The notes below the pieces were generated by a model that saw only the letters and a list, made by a program, of their open reading frames with translations, was not told the DNA's origin and ran no database searches. From assembly GCA_000381605.1 (NCBI GenBank), contig KB906759.1, positions 62,001 through 126,000 on the forward strand: 64,000 nt of DNA, written 5' to 3'. The position numbers were made by a program, and so were the translations under genes. The DNA is from Acidobacteriaceae bacterium KBS 89 (lineage in GTDB: Bacteria; Acidobacteriota; Terriglobia; Terriglobales; Acidobacteriaceae). Positions 9,234-16,504 of this stretch are shown piece after piece (position 1 is the first letter of the stretch; every line of letters begins with the position of its first letter).

Positions 9234-9293
9234 AGACCGGTTCCGCGCTTCGGTATAGTTAGTTTCTTGGCTGAAAACTTCTGGAGGACCTTG

Positions 9294-10859
9294 GTGCAAG
9301 TAAAAAGTAGAGTTGCCGCAGTAGTTCTCTGTGTCATTGCCTTTGGTTGGATGGCGAAGGCGCAGGACCTCGCAAGCTTTGAAAAACGCACCACTGTAAA
9401 AGTGCTGCCAAACGGCCTGACCCTGATCGTCTGCGAGCGCCCCGAAGCCCCCGTCTTCAGCTTCTACACACTCGTGGACGCAGGTTCCGCGGACGATCCG
9501 CAGGGGGCCAGCGGCCTCGCCCACATGTTCGAACACATGGCCTTCAAGGGCACCACCGAGATCGGCACAACCAACTATCCCGCCGAAAAGATCGCCCTCG
9601 CCAAAGTCGAAGTTGCCTATGCGGCCTACGACGCCGAATACCGCAAGCGCGTCGGACAAGACCCCGCAAAACTCGGCGAGTTGCTCAAAACCTTCCAGGC
9701 CGCTCAGGCCGCCGCACAGAAATACGTCATCCCAAATCAGTTCTCCGTAATCGCGGAAGAGAACGGTGCAGTCGGAATCAACGCATCGACCGCCGAAGAC
9801 TCCACGCAGTACTTCTGGAGCATGCCATCCAACCGCCTCGAACTCTGGGCCTACCTCGAAAGTCAGCGCATCGGCCACCCCGTCGAGCGTGAGTTCTACA
9901 AGGAGCGCAACGTCGTCCAGGAGGAGCGCCGTATGCGCGTCGACTCCGACCCCGTCGGCCGCATGATCGAGCAGTTCCTGGCCACAGCCTACGTGTCGCA
10001 CCCTTACCGTCGGCCCGGCGTCGGCTGGGAGAGTGAGATCAGCCAGGTCTCCGCCACCGAGGCCACCACATTCCACGAGAAATACTACGTTCCCTCGAAC
10101 ATCGTGATCGCCGTCGTAGGCGACCTGAAAGCGGCCGAGGCCATGCCCATCCTCGAGCGCTACTTCGCGCCAATCCCCGCCGGCCCGCTGCCCGAGCCGA
10201 TGACCACCATCGAACCCCCTCAGGTTGCAGAAAAATCCGTCGTCATCCGCGAGGCCACCCAGCCCTTTTATATCGAGGGCTACCATCGCCCCGATTATCG
10301 CGACCCCGACGACTCCGTCTACGACGCAATCGTCGACATCTTCTCCAACGGCCGCACCGCCCGCCTCTATCGCAGCCTCGTGCGCGACCAATCCATCGCC
10401 GCCGAAGCTCAGGGCTTCAGCGGCTTTCCAGGATACAAATACCCCGGCCTATTCGCCGTCTACGCCGTTCCCCTGCCCGGCCACACACCCGACCAGATGC
10501 GACAGTCGATCCACAAAGAGTTGGATCGCATGAAGACCGAGGACGTCTCCGATGAAGAACTCGAGCGCTTCAAAACCCGAGCCCGCGCCGACCTCCTTCG
10601 CGGCCTCGGCAACAACGAAGGCCTCGCGCACCAACTCGCCGAATACCAGACGCGCTTCGGCGACTGGAGACAGCTTTTTCGCCAGCTAAGCAAAATCGAT
10701 GCGGTCAACAAAGCCGACGTGAAGCGCGTAGCCAACAAGATCTTCGTCGACAGCAACCGGACCAGCGCCCAAATTGACTTTGTCCCACCGAAAAAACCGG
10801 CCCCGGGATCTGCCACACTGACAACGCCTGCAGCACCGTACGAGGGAGGTACGAAATGA
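9294..10859 (+). CDS. M16 zinc peptidase, catalytic subunit (exported)
   Basis: About 521 residues. The inverted zinc motif HxxEH is intact in HMFEHMAF, with the distal glutamate region in NVVQEERRMRVD, so this is a catalytically competent M16B (insulinase/pitrilysin-type) peptidase. A signal peptide runs from the start to AKAQ. GTG at 9294 is chosen because GGAGG sits six bases upstream; TTG at 9291 is a close alternative and a TTG at 9267 lacks a ribosome site. The gene overlaps the next M16 gene by four bases (ATGA), as is typical of bacterial M16B pairs in which one subunit carries zinc and the other shapes the chamber. Likely a periplasmic oligopeptidase. Confidence 0.92.
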   Translation: MQVKSRVAAVVLCVIAFGWMAKAQDLASFEKRTTVKVLPNGLTLIVCERPEAPVFSFYTLVDAGSADDPQGASGLAHMFEHMAFKGTTEIGTTNYPAEKIALAKVEVAYAAYDAEYRKRVGQDPAKLGELLKTFQAAQAAAQKYVIPNQFSVIAEENGAVGINASTAEDSTQYFWSMPSNRLELWAYLESQRIGHPVEREFYKERNVVQEERRMRVDSDPVGRMIEQFLATAYVSHPYRRPGVGWESEISQVSATEATTFHEKYYVPSNIVIAVVGDLKAAEAMPILERYFAPIPAGPLPEPMTTIEPPQVAEKSVVIREATQPFYIEGYHRPDYRDPDDSVYDAIVDIFSNGRTARLYRSLVRDQSIAAEAQGFSGFPGYKYPGLFAVYAVPLPGHTPDQMRQSIHKELDRMKTEDVSDEELERFKTRARADLLRGLGNNEGLAHQLAEYQTRFGDWRQLFRQLSKIDAVNKADVKRVANKIFVDSNRTSAQIDFVPPKKPAPGSATLTTPAAPYEGGTK

Positions 10860-12352
10860 ACAAGCCTTCGACGATGCGTCTCGCAGTTGCCCTGTTCCCC
10901 ACCCTGCTGGCCACAATCAGCGTCGCCCAAACCGCACCCGCCGCGCCGCCGGCTACAACAAAGCCCGCCGCGGCCACGCCGCCCTGGAAGAAAATTCCAA
11001 TCCCTCCGCTCCACGCATTCAAGCCCGTCCAACCAAAGCGAATCGAACTCGCAAACGGTCTCGTCATCTTTCTGCAGGAAGACCATGAGCTGCCCTTCAT
11101 CAACGGCTCCATCCTCATTCGAGGCGGCAGTCGCGACGAGCCAGATGCAAAGATCGGCCTCGTCTCCCTCTACGGCGAAACCTGGCGAACCAGCGGCACA
11201 GCCACCATCGACGGCGATAAGCTCGACGACAAACTTGAAGCGAAAGCAGCCTCCATCGAGACCTCCGGCGGAACCGCCTCGACCTCAGTCAACTGGTCGA
11301 GCCTGAAAGGTGACTTCGATACCGTCTTCGCCCAGACGCTCGATCTCCTGCTCCATCCCATCTTCAAGGCCGAAAAGCTCCAGTTGGCAAAGGGTCAGGT
11401 AGAAACGAGCATCTCGCGTCGCAACGACGATCCCAGCGGTATCGCAACGCGCGAGGCAATCAAACTCGCCTACGGCCCCCACAATCCCTATGCCCATCAG
11501 GTCGAGTACGCAACCGTCGAATCAGTCACACTCGACGACCTAAAGGCATGGCACGACAAGACTGTCGTTCCCAACAACATTATCGTCGCCGTCTCCGGCG
11601 ACTTCGACAGCGCAACCATGGAAGCAAAGCTTCGCGCAGCCTTCGAATCACTGCCTCGCGGCGAAAAGTTCGAATCCGTCAAAGCCACCTTCACCGACCC
11701 GAAACAGACCGTCAATTTCGTCGAGAAGTCAGACGTCAACCAGTCGAACGTGTTGATAGTCGGCCTTGGCACCGAGCGCAGCAACCCCGACTACTACGCG
11801 CTCAGCGTCATGAACGAAATCTTCTCCGGCGGATTCGGATCGCGCGTCGTCCAGAACGTCCGCACAAAACTCGGCCTCGCCTACAGTGTCAGTGGCAGCT
11901 TCAGCGCGTCCTATGATCACCCTGGAATCTTCTACGTCATAGCCGCAACCAAGAGCGCCTCCACCGTCGCCGCCACGCAGGCAATGCTCGCAGAGGTAGG
12001 CCGCCTCAAAACCGAGCCTCCCACCCCCGCCGAGCTGAGCAAGGCGAAAGACCAGGTCCTGAACTCATTCATCTTTCACTACGACTCACCCGACAAGACG
12101 CTAAACGAGCAGGTCGTCCTTGCCTTCTACGGCTACCCCGCCGACACGCTCGAAAAATACAAGGCGGGCATCGAAAAGGTGACCGCAGCAGACGTCACGC
12201 GTGTGGCCAACAAGTACATCGACGTCTCGAAGCTCGCGATCATTGTGGTCGGCAACGAAGCGCAGATCACCCCAAAGCTGGACACCTTGGGCAAGGTAAC
12301 TAACATCGATGTCTCGATTCCACCCCCGCCAAAGGGCAAACCCGCCGAATAG
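10856..12352 (+). CDS. M16 peptidase-like, non-catalytic partner subunit
   Basis: A 498-residue M16 homologue with a signal peptide (cleavage near ISVAQ) and an Ala/Pro-rich linker. At the position of HxxEH it has YGETW, so the zinc ligands are missing. The C-terminal substrate-binding half is well kept (IFSGGFGSRV..LAYSVSG). This is the usual arrangement of the second subunit in heterodimeric M16B enzymes: no chemistry of its own, but needed for substrate binding. The four-base overlap with the catalytic gene supports fixed stoichiometry. No terminator is obvious within the 27 bases before the next convergent gene. Confidence 0.9.
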   Translation: MNKPSTMRLAVALFPTLLATISVAQTAPAAPPATTKPAAATPPWKKIPIPPLHAFKPVQPKRIELANGLVIFLQEDHELPFINGSILIRGGSRDEPDAKIGLVSLYGETWRTSGTATIDGDKLDDKLEAKAASIETSGGTASTSVNWSSLKGDFDTVFAQTLDLLLHPIFKAEKLQLAKGQVETSISRRNDDPSGIATREAIKLAYGPHNPYAHQVEYATVESVTLDDLKAWHDKTVVPNNIIVAVSGDFDSATMEAKLRAAFESLPRGEKFESVKATFTDPKQTVNFVEKSDVNQSNVLIVGLGTERSNPDYYALSVMNEIFSGGFGSRVVQNVRTKLGLAYSVSGSFSASYDHPGIFYVIAATKSASTVAATQAMLAEVGRLKTEPPTPAELSKAKDQVLNSFIFHYDSPDKTLNEQVVLAFYGYPADTLEKYKAGIEKVTAADVTRVANKYIDVSKLAIIVVGNEAQITPKLDTLGKVTNIDVSIPPPPKGKPAE

Positions 12353-13458: not shown

Positions 13459-14103
13459 TTGGCTCTGGTTCGCTCGAATTGTACTGCCATCCTCAACAAC
13501 TCAGGACCTGGTTGCTCAAAATGTGGCAGCACAGCCGCGAATAGTGACCCGCCGCCCGCAACACATTTCGCCAGCGATAAACTAGGAAGCCCCGCCGTTG
13601 AACCCGACTACGCCGCGATCATCGACCTCGTCAACCTGGCCTTCCGGGGCACGGGTCCTTCGGCGAGCTGGAACATAGAGGCCGATATCATCGCCGGTCA
13701 GCGCCTGAACGATTCCCTCCTACGAGAGGACCTCGCCGCCAAGCCCGAAGCACATCTGCTCACCTGGCGCGACGCCCCCAACGGACCACTCCTCGGTACA
13801 GTCTGGCTGGATCCCGGCAAGGACGGCGCATGGCATCTCGGACTTCTCAGCGTCCGCCCCGACCTGCAAAACAGGCAACTCGGTCGCACCCTCCTCGCCG
13901 CTGCAGAAACCTTCGCGAAGGAACGTGGCGCGCTTCGGATACGCATGACCGTCATTCAGGTGCGGGACAGCCTTATCGCCTGGTACAAGCGACGAGGCTA
14001 CGCGCCAACTGGCGAGACCAAGCCCTTCCCCTACGGCGACGACCGCTTCGGCAAGCCGCTCCGCGACGATCTTCACTTCGTGGTGCTGGAGAAAACCCTC
14101 TAG
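13459..14103 (+). CDS. GNAT-family acetyltransferase (start uncertain)
   Basis: The clear part runs from about 13600: DYAAIIDLVNLAFRG at the start of the fold, LGTVWLDP, then the acetyl-CoA loop region LLSVRPDLQNRQLGRTLL (Q/RxxGxG/A type), and the closing WYKRRGYAPTGE. So it is a GCN5-type acetyltransferase of about 165 residues acting on a small molecule or protein amine. The frame opens at a TTG (13459) without a ribosome site, and no ATG or GTG lies in frame before the domain. The first ~45 residues do not look like protein, and the divergent neighbour begins only 18 bases away. The N-terminus may have been lost or shifted. Confidence 0.7.
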   Translation: MALVRSNCTAILNNSGPGCSKCGSTAANSDPPPATHFASDKLGSPAVEPDYAAIIDLVNLAFRGTGPSASWNIEADIIAGQRLNDSLLREDLAAKPEAHLLTWRDAPNGPLLGTVWLDPGKDGAWHLGLLSVRPDLQNRQLGRTLLAAAETFAKERGALRIRMTVIQVRDSLIAWYKRRGYAPTGETKPFPYGDDRFGKPLRDDLHFVVLEKTL

Positions 14104-14155
14104 CCGCCCCGGCAAACCAGCGCTCCAAAGCGCGGCTGATTTAGAATCGGGAGCC

Positions 14156-14626
14156 ATGAAGATTCCTCGTCAACTCCATCTGCATCTGTTTCTTGCCGGC
14201 GCAACACTCACCGGCCTCCTCTCTGCCTCGCTCTACGCTGCGACACCGGAAGAGCAGGCCGTCCTTGCTCCCATACAGGCAATGTTTGACGGCATGACGA
14301 AACGCAGCGCCGCAGCTATCAAAGAACCAACTCTGCCCGGCGGCACCATGGTCCTCATGCGCGACGGCAAGGCCACCCAGATGACCTTCGACGCCTTCGC
14401 CGAACGGGTCGGCAGACCCGGCACTACGCACATCGAAGAGCGCATACACGATCCGCTGGTGCGCATCGACAACGACCTCGCCGTAGTCTGGGCCCCGTTC
14501 GACTTTCTGGTCGACGGCAAGGTCGATCACTGCGGAACAGATCTCTTCAATCTCGTCCGTCAGGACGGAAAATGGGTGATTGCCAGCGTCGCCGACACCG
14601 GACATAAGGATTGCGCAGCAAAGTAG
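14156..14626 (+). CDS. secreted NTF2-like protein
   Basis: A 156-residue protein with a signal peptide (cleavage near SLYAA), then a small alpha+beta domain of the SnoaL/NTF2-like (lumazine-binding-like) kind: EEQAVLAPIQAMFDGM, a central ERIHDPLVRIDNDLAVVWAP and a closing GTDLFNLVRQDGKWVI. Two cysteines (in DHCGTDL and KDCAAK) could form a disulfide in the periplasm. Many members are catalytically silent ligand binders; no active-site assignment is possible. It stands alone, with the repeated RNA-like elements starting 22 bases downstream. Confidence 0.8.
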   Translation: MKIPRQLHLHLFLAGATLTGLLSASLYAATPEEQAVLAPIQAMFDGMTKRSAAAIKEPTLPGGTMVLMRDGKATQMTFDAFAERVGRPGTTHIEERIHDPLVRIDNDLAVVWAPFDFLVDGKVDHCGTDLFNLVRQDGKWVIASVADTGHKDCAAK

Positions 14627-14647
14627 CCTCGAACCCCCTGGATTGAA

Positions 14648-15092
14648 TGTCATCTTCTAACTTCGAGCGCTGCCGGAGTTAGCCAACGAATGGCTCCGCA
14701 GTGAAAGTTCAATCCCCCGAACCGACAGCAAATTTCCACAGTATTGGCTGGATTTGCACAAAAAAATACGTGCTTTCGCTGATGTTTTTAGGTAGATCGC
14801 GAGTATCTTTCAACTCAACGGAGGAGAAATCTTCCAGTAGGAGAGAGTAGACAAAGGCCATCACGAGAACCGGCAACGGAACTCACGAAGCAATCGGGAA
14901 ACTGGCTGATTCGGTATGGCACAAGAAAGCTCTCGCAGTGAAAGTAAGGACGGGAAAGTACGGAAAACGCGGGCTCTGCTCGTAGTTCCGAACAATTCTG
15001 AAGTTGCAAGTAGCTGTGATCTGGGCGCCGTACCAGGTCTTCGAAAAATCGGAAAGCTAGGGGCGAGGTCTCGAAAGAGAAATCGCCCCTTC
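14648..15092. repeat. direct repeat copy 1 (~445 bp)
   Basis: Begins at TGTCATCTTCTAA and ends after a GC-rich hairpin. The same element recurs at 15380-15823 with roughly 85-90 % identity by eye over its 3' two thirds and less over the 5' third. No terminal inverted repeats, target duplication or transposase are visible. Confidence 0.9.
14820..15092 (+). ncRNA. putative structured non-coding RNA, copy 1
   Basis: The best-conserved part of the repeat folds into several helices that are kept in both copies. A 6-bp stem with GAAA loop lies at 14820-14835, a 7-bp long-range helix joins CGGAACT (14877-14883) to AGTTCCG (14984-14990), a 7-bp hairpin spans 15018-15039, and a terminator-like GGGGCGA/TCGCCCC hairpin with inner TCTC-GAAA-GAGA spans 15060-15089. 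A possible peptide frame exists, but differences between copies mostly change amino acids while helices survive. No known RNA family was recognised. Ends are estimates. Confidence 0.55.
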
Positions 15093-15379
15093 CTATTGGT
15101 ACAGATCGAACGCACACGTAGCCTCGCAGCCAACGCTTCAGCCGGATTGTTAAAACAAACAACCTATGGCAGACGAGTGGACGTTACACTGTTGGCATCC
15201 GGCCCGCACGATTCTTCACCTTTGTCGTTGCACCACATTCCTGCAATCTCATCGCATCGCGCGAAACGCCCGACCAGCATCGACACTGCTTTTCGATGAT
15301 CTGGTTCAAAGTTGATCCCTCGTCAGCCGCTCTGCAGCGAACCCAATCTGACCGAACACTCTCGCGGTCCGAAAAGCTG

Positions 15380-15823
15380 TGTCATCTTCTAAACTCGAGC
15401 GCTGCACAAGTTAGCCAACGAACGGTTCCGTAGTGAAAGTGCAACCACCAAACAGAGCGCCAATTTCCACAATATTGGCCCGATTTGCACAAAAATATAG
15501 CTCTCGTAGCCGATGTTTTTTGAGTAAATCACGAGTATCTTTCAATTCAACGGAGGAGAAATCTTCCAGTAGGAGAGAGTAGACAAGGGCCGTCACGAGA
15601 GCCGGCAACGGAACTCACGAAGCACTCGGGAAACTGGCTGCTTCGGCATGGTGCAAGAAAGCTCTTACAGTGAATGTGATAACGGGAAAGTAAGGAGAAC
15701 GCGGGCTCTGCTCGTAGTTCCGAACAATCCTGAAGTTGCGAGTAGCTGTGATCTGGGCACCGTACCAGGTCTTCGAAAAATCGGAAAGCATGGGGCGAGA
15801 TCTCGAAAGAGAAATCGCCCCTT
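15380..15823. repeat. direct repeat copy 2 (~445 bp)
   Basis: Second copy of the element at 14648-15092, same orientation, separated by 287 bp of unrelated sequence (15093-15379) in which no gene was recognised. Confidence 0.9.
15552..15823 (+). ncRNA. putative structured non-coding RNA, copy 2
   Basis: Equivalent helices are at 15552-15567 (GAAA-capped stem), 15609-15615 with 15716-15722 (CGGAACT/AGTTCCG), 15750-15771 (7-bp hairpin; the loop differs by one base from copy 1), and 15792-15821 (terminal GC hairpin; the inner mismatch differs). Differences fall mainly in loops or between helices. The terminal hairpin is followed by TTCGCTATT rather than a clean T-run. Confidence 0.55.
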
Positions 15824-15916
15824 CGCTATTGTGCCCAACAATGTCGTGGCACAGCCCACACGAAACGCCTCGCGACCACAATCGCCCTCCAATACCTTAA
15901 ACCCACGTAACAAGCC

Positions 15917-16402
15917 TTAGACTCTCGTCTCCCAGTCATCGGCGGCTTGGGTCCCACCTGAGACACTGACGATTTCAATCTTCTGGAAGGTGAACGAAAT
16001 CTCCTGCAAGTCACGGGGATCGACGGAACCTGCGGGTTGATTATCAGGCAGTGTCTCCCGGACCACGGAGATCGATGCGTTGGTCAGCTTCACCGTGTGG
16101 TGCAGAACCTGCGCTCCCGAAATATTTGCAACGAAGAACTCGAAGAGAACCGTGGGCAGACTCTCGTTCGTATAAATTGCCTGATAGAACTGCGGGGACG
16201 AGGCGCCCCACTCTTTACTGAAGACAACAGGCTGATGCTGCCGCTTTCCTGTGGGGAGGCCGCTAGTGCCGTCTCGCGGAGAAAGGACGCCATAGCTGAA
16301 CGACACTCCTTGAATCTTGCCTTCGTGGCTCTTCTGGGTAGACTCGCCTTTGAAGTCTCCCTGTTTCGCTCCGGTAACGGTGACAAAAAATTGCGTGACC
16401 AT
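15917..16402 (-). CDS. hcp: Hcp-type type VI secretion tube protein (orphan)
   Basis: A 161-residue protein of the Hcp/TssD family. It has the family's small beta-barrel pattern: FFVTVTGAKQGDFKGES at the start, then GKIQGVSFSYGV, TGKRQHQPVVFSKEWG with a substrate-loop SSPQFYQAI, and the C-terminal ISFTFQKIEIV strand. Hcp hexamers form the inner tube of type VI secretion and are also exported. AGGAG precedes the ATG at 16402. No other type VI gene (sheath, VgrG, ClpV) is in the window, so this is an orphan copy that may serve a distant T6SS, carry a cargo, or be a remnant. Its neighbours are the RNA-like repeats and a sensor kinase. Confidence 0.85.
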   Translation of the reverse strand: MVTQFFVTVTGAKQGDFKGESTQKSHEGKIQGVSFSYGVLSPRDGTSGLPTGKRQHQPVVFSKEWGASSPQFYQAIYTNESLPTVLFEFFVANISGAQVLHHTVKLTNASISVVRETLPDNQPAGSVDPRDLQEISFTFQKIEIVSVSGGTQAADDWETRV

Positions 16403-16504
16403 AGTGGGCTCCTCTCACTTTCCAGCATCCGCTTCAATCGATACCTCTTCCATTGGCCAACCTCCATCGACCTCTGCGGGAAGTAGATCGGTTAGGGCGG
16501 AGAA

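Follow-up and report, generated by a model that had tools for sequence, protein, structure and literature searches.

A candidate stand-alone structured RNA family without an Rfam match, present as a tandem pair in Acidobacteriaceae bacterium KBS 89 and most likely induced by a dedicated activator

What is encoded by two similar repeats that lie head to tail in the genome of a soil-phylum bacterium? The repeats sit in a 64,000-nucleotide stretch of DNA from Acidobacteriaceae bacterium KBS 89, the whole of which is called the window here, and a sequence-only reading had taken each ~445-bp copy for an unrecognised structured RNA. Acidobacteria are abundant in soils, and to our knowledge few of their non-coding RNAs have been described. 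Our search of open-licence publications on RNAs of Acidobacteria, Acidobacteriaceae, Edaphobacter, Granulicella and Terriglobus found no description of the RNA treated below, which we call RNA-A.

The tandem pair in the window

By blastn, positions 14648 to ~15098 and 15380–15831 are direct copies with 88% identity over query positions 1–451; they start 731–732 bp apart and leave a gap of ~287 bp, as the sequence-only reading had described. The pair would have arisen by tandem duplication of a ~732-bp unit. Identity between the copies is 91% in the 300-nt 3′ part, 76% in a 76-nt middle part and 84% in the 70-nt 5′ part, the flank of the tandem duplication (14648–14717, + strand, repeated at 15380–15449). 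Covariance model R1, described below, matches the 3′ part on the + strand at 14816–15096 (model positions 1–284, 269.8 bits) and at 15548–15828 (268.2 bits), and the two tools together, blastn and R1, find these two copies only in the 6.0-Mb KBS 89 genome. The RNA body thus looks to be ~281 nt long in each copy, and the ~170 bp before it look like promoter and repeated flank. The idea that the ~445-bp element is a structured RNA therefore appears to stand for its 3′ ~281 nt and to fall for the upstream part, which holds paired repeats and a putative promoter. Within the flank, a 37-nt part (14659–14694) matches G016:C8:49029–49065 at 86%, on a contig other than the one that carries the RNA copy of that genome.

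Folding is more stable in each copy than in any of 200 dinucleotide shuffles (z = −5.94 for copy 1 and −4.11 for copy 2). Their RNA bodies differ at 26 places, 17 in unpaired and 9 in paired columns even though paired columns are the commoner (158 vs 124), which agrees with the earlier remark that differences lie mostly in loops. Four of the nine paired-column differences keep a standard pair in both copies, one is paired only in copy 2, two only in copy 1 and two in neither (one of them against a gap). No compensatory double change was found between the two window copies alone among these 26 differences, and it is the wider family that supplies the compensatory evidence.

Homologues and the consensus fold

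Matches to the repeat were found by blastn at E ≤ 0.01 in 19 of 62 genomes of the genus and 49 of 300 genomes of the bacterial family, some of them marginal, and nhmmer over the fetched loci yielded 43 full-length copies. Alignment A1 comprises 38 of these, omitting L006 (near-identical to L005), L017 (which has an insertion) and the divergent L018, L019 and L025, and R1 was built from it. With R1 the RNA was found in 24 of the 62 genus genomes at E ≤ 0.001, counting one 30-nt match and one short 45.9-bit match, and in 62 of the 300 family genomes, in 14 of 79 genera, at E ≤ 1e-8; the homologues that the sequence-only reading proposed to look for do exist. Distribution is patchy even inside the genus (24/62). 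In a 396-genome sample of the phylum, searched under the stricter filter settings applied to large sets, R1 matches above 40 bits occur only within the same bacterial family; matches of ~25–27 bits in other families of the phylum were taken as noise. An exact-pattern scan of named genomes returned 21 loci, all from Acidobacteria or genera thereof, and the RNA is present in named strains of Edaphobacter, Granulicella and Silvibacterium.

The A1 consensus contains 79 pairs in 12 helices, with 89.1% of cells paired, and 49 of the 79 pairs have changes on both sides. Double-change cells number 203; shuffles gave 71.7, and the slid controls never more than 91. Stricter evaluation used a home-made, phylogeny-aware covariation test, R-scape-like but not R-scape, in which substitutions are re-dealt along the tree. 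It was applied to a set of 63 copies, obtained from 71 model matches after removal of identical or <240-nt ones; the 65 source loci were hand-chosen and some overlap. When these copies were aligned with MAFFT without structural constraint, only two column pairs reached E < 0.05, and both are pairs of the structure. In the model-fitted alignment, which leans to the structure, the ten strongest covarying column pairs all belong to the structure, of whose 79 pairs 11 reach E < 0.05. An APC-corrected G-test on 38 sequences was noisy, with structure pairs making up 3 of the top 20, including the top two. The base pairs thus covary across homologues, both in the 49 doubly changed pairs and in the pairs that survive the strict test, and by this measure RNA-A appears to be a structured non-coding RNA family.

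The predicted fold, conserved among the homologues, has a hairpin with a GNRA loop at its 5′ end, a multi-branched core from which one long arm and two further GNRA-capped arms extend, a covarying ATCTGG/CCAGAT hairpin and a GNRA-capped terminal hairpin. Four hairpin loops conform to GNRA in 38/38, 37/38, 34/35 and 34/38 copies. The GAAA-capped stem of the sequence-only reading is the 5′ hairpin P1 (14820–14835, + strand, in copy 1); it is real and kept across the RNA family, with 99.6% of cells paired and the 38/38 loop. Equally sound is the GC-rich terminal hairpin, likewise kept across the family (92.4% of cells paired), which is terminator-like at 15060–15089 in copy 1 and 15792–15821 in copy 2, both on the + strand. 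The stretch that follows is poor in U in copy 1 (TTCCTATT) and reads TTCGCTATTGT in copy 2, and in many copies the U-tract 3′ of this hairpin is broken up (TTTCGCTTT). One proposed element was lost: the long-range 7-bp helix CGGAACT/AGTTCCG has only 67.6% of its cells paired across the family and two of its seven base pairs mostly disrupted, and the consensus assigns these bases to a GCAA-capped hairpin and a further arm.

In the predicted core two helices claim the same bases. The UUC at columns 251–253 pairs either in helix 11 (UUC/GGA; 85.7% paired) or with columns 26–29 (96.7%), and this second helix, 26–29/250–253, would make the core a closed four-way junction. A1 columns 26–29, 250–255 and 262–266 (within window 14816–15096) thus hold mutually exclusive pairings that are both well conserved. 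These could be a conformational switch, or one of the helices could be miscalled.

No Rfam family accounts for the RNA. Rfam 15 cmscan of the window copies (E ≤ 10) and of eight homologous loci (E ≤ 1) gave only chance-level matches, to one snoRNA and one lncRNA model, and none to Acido-1, Acido-Lenti-1 or HEARO, which fits the label "unrecognised". Table 1 of PMC2864571 marks Acido-1 (RF01686) and Acido-Lenti-1 (RF01687) 'y' for RNA and 'n' for cis-regulatory. The likeness is that these too are candidate structured RNAs of Acidobacteria marked non-cis-regulatory; the difference is that the RNA-A copies give no cmscan match to them. The large ornate bacterial RNAs OLE, ROOL and GOLLD, of which raiA is another, resemble RNA-A as stand-alone structured RNAs, but RNA-A has no Rfam match, measures ~285 nt and is without a known partner. 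According to PMC12286853, GOLLD, ROOL and OLE form homo-oligomers.

The control region and its candidate regulators

An observation new to this analysis is that two putative control sites, conserved and regularly spaced, precede most RNA copies. The pair ATTTCCACA-N11-ATTTSCACA, scored at 15 or more of 18 letters, lies upstream of the promoter in 53 of the 63 distinct full-length copies, with a start-to-start spacing of 20 bp in 49, 19 bp in 3 and 21 bp in 1. Box 2 lies 54–57 positions from the RNA in 44 of the boxed copies, 45–46 (one helical turn less) in 8 and 26 in 1, and a TANNNT ends 6–7 positions ahead of the RNA 5′ end in 44 of the 53. In the window, all on the + strand, the activator-like boxes of copy 1 are ATTTCCACA at 14732–14740 and, 20 bp on, ATTTGCACA at 14752–14760, followed by a presumed −10 element, TATCTT, at 14804–14809 with a weak −35; in copy 2 the same boxes occupy 15463–15471 (ATTTCCACA) and 15483–15491 (ATTTGCACA), and the presumed −10 element TATCTT occupies 15536–15541. 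The putative promoter region is thus kept at a fixed distance from the RNA.

The pair is also specific. It occurs twice in the 6-Mb KBS 89 genome, both times at the RNA copies. Exact pairs number 9 in the 62 genus genomes (in 5 of them), all 9 just upstream of an R1 match, and 26 in the 300 family genomes, all 26 sitting 45–59 nt before an R1 match; at other RNA copies the pairs are imperfect. Allowing one mismatch gave 24 pairs in the 300 genomes, 12 at the RNA and 12 elsewhere, the latter number being near a rough chance estimate. Of the off-RNA pairs, one (L163) led to a second RNA, described below, and the other 11 were given a model search and a look at their letters, six of these 11 an Rfam scan as well; folding of L165 gave no signal. 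Every exact pair in the sampled genomes thus belongs to a copy of this RNA, which points to a signal of its own and offers a way to find the regulator.

A different putative promoter precedes the RNA in a divergent subset. The pattern GRCAAC-N18-SYCYHA ends 6–7 positions before the RNA in 8 copies (L018, L019, L025, L041, L044, L050, L113 and L122), and resembles ECF-sigma promoters. It was defined after the sequences had been viewed, and its background is 22 matches in 2.16 Mb (both strands of partly overlapping fetched loci), the 8 included. Promoter types divide the 63 copies into 53 with the box pair, 8 with the ECF-like pattern, none with both and 2 with neither. Because two unlike promoter types both end 6–7 positions before it, the RNA start is placed at about CAACGG (14816/15548), and we infer that transcription starts there and ends after the terminal hairpin. 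A generic scan of the window copies reported no sigma-70 promoter and no forward-strand terminator, and the terminal hairpins were not flagged; transcription of the RNA is inferred from the conserved promoter and terminator-like features.

These arrangements suggest a mechanism. In most copies an activator would bind the two direct repeats 20 bp, or two helical turns, apart, and so bring RNA polymerase to a promoter whose −35 is weak; in the divergent subset an ECF-type sigma factor would drive the same RNA. An activator-dependent promoter is very probable on these grounds, and RNA-A is probably induced by a dedicated activator. Such a layout, with two direct repeats facing the same side of the helix at a constant distance from the promoter, is VirR-like. 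VirR is a LytTR-type response regulator, and the promoters that it controls include that of the VR-RNA gene. In the passages of PMC2838878 that deal with them, VirR boxes are paired direct repeats on one helix face in a fixed place, with repeats separated by 7–8 nt. The VirR-box promoters of Clostridium perfringens therefore share with the RNA-A candidate boxes the site geometry of a response regulator; they differ in the gap, 7–8 nt vs 11 here, and in phylum, and a LytTR protein is here no more than a candidate regulator. LytTR genes are present in 12 of 12 RNA-bearing and 12 of 12 RNA-lacking genomes. The top-scoring LytTR group (≥89 bits) occurs in 8 of the 12 RNA-bearing vs 1 of the 12 RNA-lacking genomes, but G001 and G046 carry the RNA with one LytTR gene only. 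Candidate LytTR genes lie at G000:C6:164768 and C4:263517.

The boxes could instead be DnaA boxes, in which case the locus would titrate DnaA or tie the RNA to replication, with no response regulator involved. The DnaA-box consensus is TTWTNCACA, to which the boxes conform save at position 1, and some copies have TTATCCACA or TTATTCACA. Against this reading, the box pair is absent elsewhere in the genome, the 6 kb around dnaA contain no T[GTA][AT][TC]NCACA (a wider form finds one ATTTTCACA in 4.4 kb), and a constant distance to the −10 element is typical of an activator site. We consider the explanation improbable, DnaA being the less likely binder of these sites.

Genomic context and a second RNA

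The surroundings of RNA-A vary. In the window its neighbours are an acetyltransferase, a lumazine-binding-like protein, an Hcp-like protein and a histidine kinase. Across 21 contexts, with a simple home-made ORF caller, no protein cluster recurs in more than 4, and among 108 neighbouring proteins the commonest Pfam family, within the 25 commonest of 209 families, is found in 4. Neighbours thus differ among copies, as had been put forward for checking, and since none recurs in more than 4 of the 21 contexts the RNA probably acts in trans, a mode of action that we regard as very likely. An Hcp-like gene (T6SS tube family; 15917–16402, − strand) adjoins copy 2. Three genomes of the same genus have two M16 peptidase genes side by side upstream of the RNA (window 9267–12352; L060, L066), a sign of descent in place.

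Patchy presence, tandem copies and varied genomic places, together with more than one R1 match in 26 of the 62 RNA-bearing genomes (some overlapping or partial), are what would be expected if RNA-A belonged to a mobile or selfish element, such as an IscB/TnpB-like guide RNA or a MITE-like repeat, spreading between genomes. Several observations make this quite unlikely. Conservation, judged by eye, extends from the boxes to the terminal hairpin and no further; 14000–16500 contains no inverted repeat of ≥16 nt; no transposase or nuclease is found among the 25 commonest Pfam families of the neighbouring proteins; the limit of 4 in 21 contexts applies to neighbours of every kind; and neither HEARO nor any other Rfam family was matched. 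Phage and plasmid records gave no blastn match and viral contigs no match to one exact pattern, and an origin from phage or plasmid was rejected on this basis.

A cis-acting leader, riboswitch or attenuator, for the next gene is more improbable still. Leaders commonly consist of a structured RNA with a terminator-like hairpin after it, and some downstream ORFs begin nearby, but the next gene in the window, the Hcp-like one, is on the opposite strand, no conserved co-directional downstream gene emerged from the contexts, and at three loci (the window, L060 and L071) head-to-tail copies ~140–440 bp apart leave little space for a gene; with no protein cluster in more than 4 of the 21 contexts and the commonest Pfam family in 4 of the 108 proteins, the leader was rejected. 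Least tenable, to the point of being practically dismissed, is a gene for a short peptide, or an mRNA with a dual function: copy 1 overlaps an antisense ORF of 115 aa and a sense one of 127 aa, and antisense frames are open in 21–32% of 38 copies, but sense frames have ~2 stops per copy and are open in only 5–8%, gap lengths are mostly not multiples of three and the antisense ORF clusters in just 3 of 21 contexts (cluster c3), so that a coding gene was rejected and the earlier argument against coding is borne out.

With homologues in 62 of 300 genomes, covarying pairs, no Rfam match and coding unlikely, the proposal of an unrecognised structured RNA is upheld, and that each copy is a real non-coding RNA gene is close to certain in our judgement. 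RNA-A is most likely a stand-alone structured RNA family, represented here by a tandem pair and induced by a dedicated activator. On this view the cell would make the RNA in response to a signal or stress, and its probable role is that of a regulatory RNA or a protein scaffold; the view of it as a response-induced regulator or scaffold we favour with some reserve. The reading as a whole, in which each copy would be an independent ~285-nt trans-acting structured non-coding RNA gene under activator or ECF control and an output of signal response, we hold with moderate confidence.

The one-mismatch pair at L163:2001–2325 (G072:C13) consists of RNA-A-type boxes that precede an unrelated ~255-nt RNA gene, RNA-B, also found at loci L175–L194. 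By blastn RNA-B is present in 104 of the 300 family genomes and 38 of the 79 genera, some matches being weak. It has a covarying structure of its own, with 97.3% of cells paired and 23 pairs with double changes; this fold rests on 20 true copies, 22 of the 42 matches being reverse-strand or partial. RNA-B yielded no Rfam match and no R1 match (best 1.5 bits). In 16 of the 20 best loci a box WTTKCACM (at least 7 of 8 letters) precedes the RNA by 44–46 nt, counted to where the conserved RNA begins and not to a mapped transcript start; 14% of shuffled RNA-B upstream regions reach 7/8 anywhere in 40–60. The box thus sits at the short distance of RNA-A, and the RNA-B promoter is a strong TTGACA. 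RNA-B is like RNA-A in its stand-alone layout, GNRA loops, upstream TTKCAC-type box and frequent occurrence as two copies per genome, and unlike it in sequence and predicted fold. Tandem RNA-B pairs ~425 bp apart occur at G115:C11:28838–29518 and G212:C7:6278–6958; RNA-A is likewise found in tandem.

The two RNAs seldom meet. With 62 and 104 carriers they are found together in 1 of 300 genomes vs 21.5 expected, the shared genome (G195) being a 630-contig draft with a partial RNA-B match; at the level of genera, 14 and 38 of 79 overlap in 2 vs 6.7 expected, or in 1 after three weak-match RNA-B genera are dropped, and all these counts are weakened by shared ancestry. TTKCAC-type boxes at equal distance and the single shared genome in 300 are the grounds for a tentative and rather doubtful further reading, that one regulatory circuit may drive either of two unrelated RNAs, RNA-A in some genera and RNA-B in others. 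If true, the activator would have kept its place while its RNA output was swapped for a non-homologous one doing the same job. The complementary RNA-B family poses the question of whether, under a common control, one RNA can take the place of another that is unrelated to it. For RNA-A itself, the family is well supported, its fold, start, end and control region are predicted, and since named strains carry it, it is directly testable.
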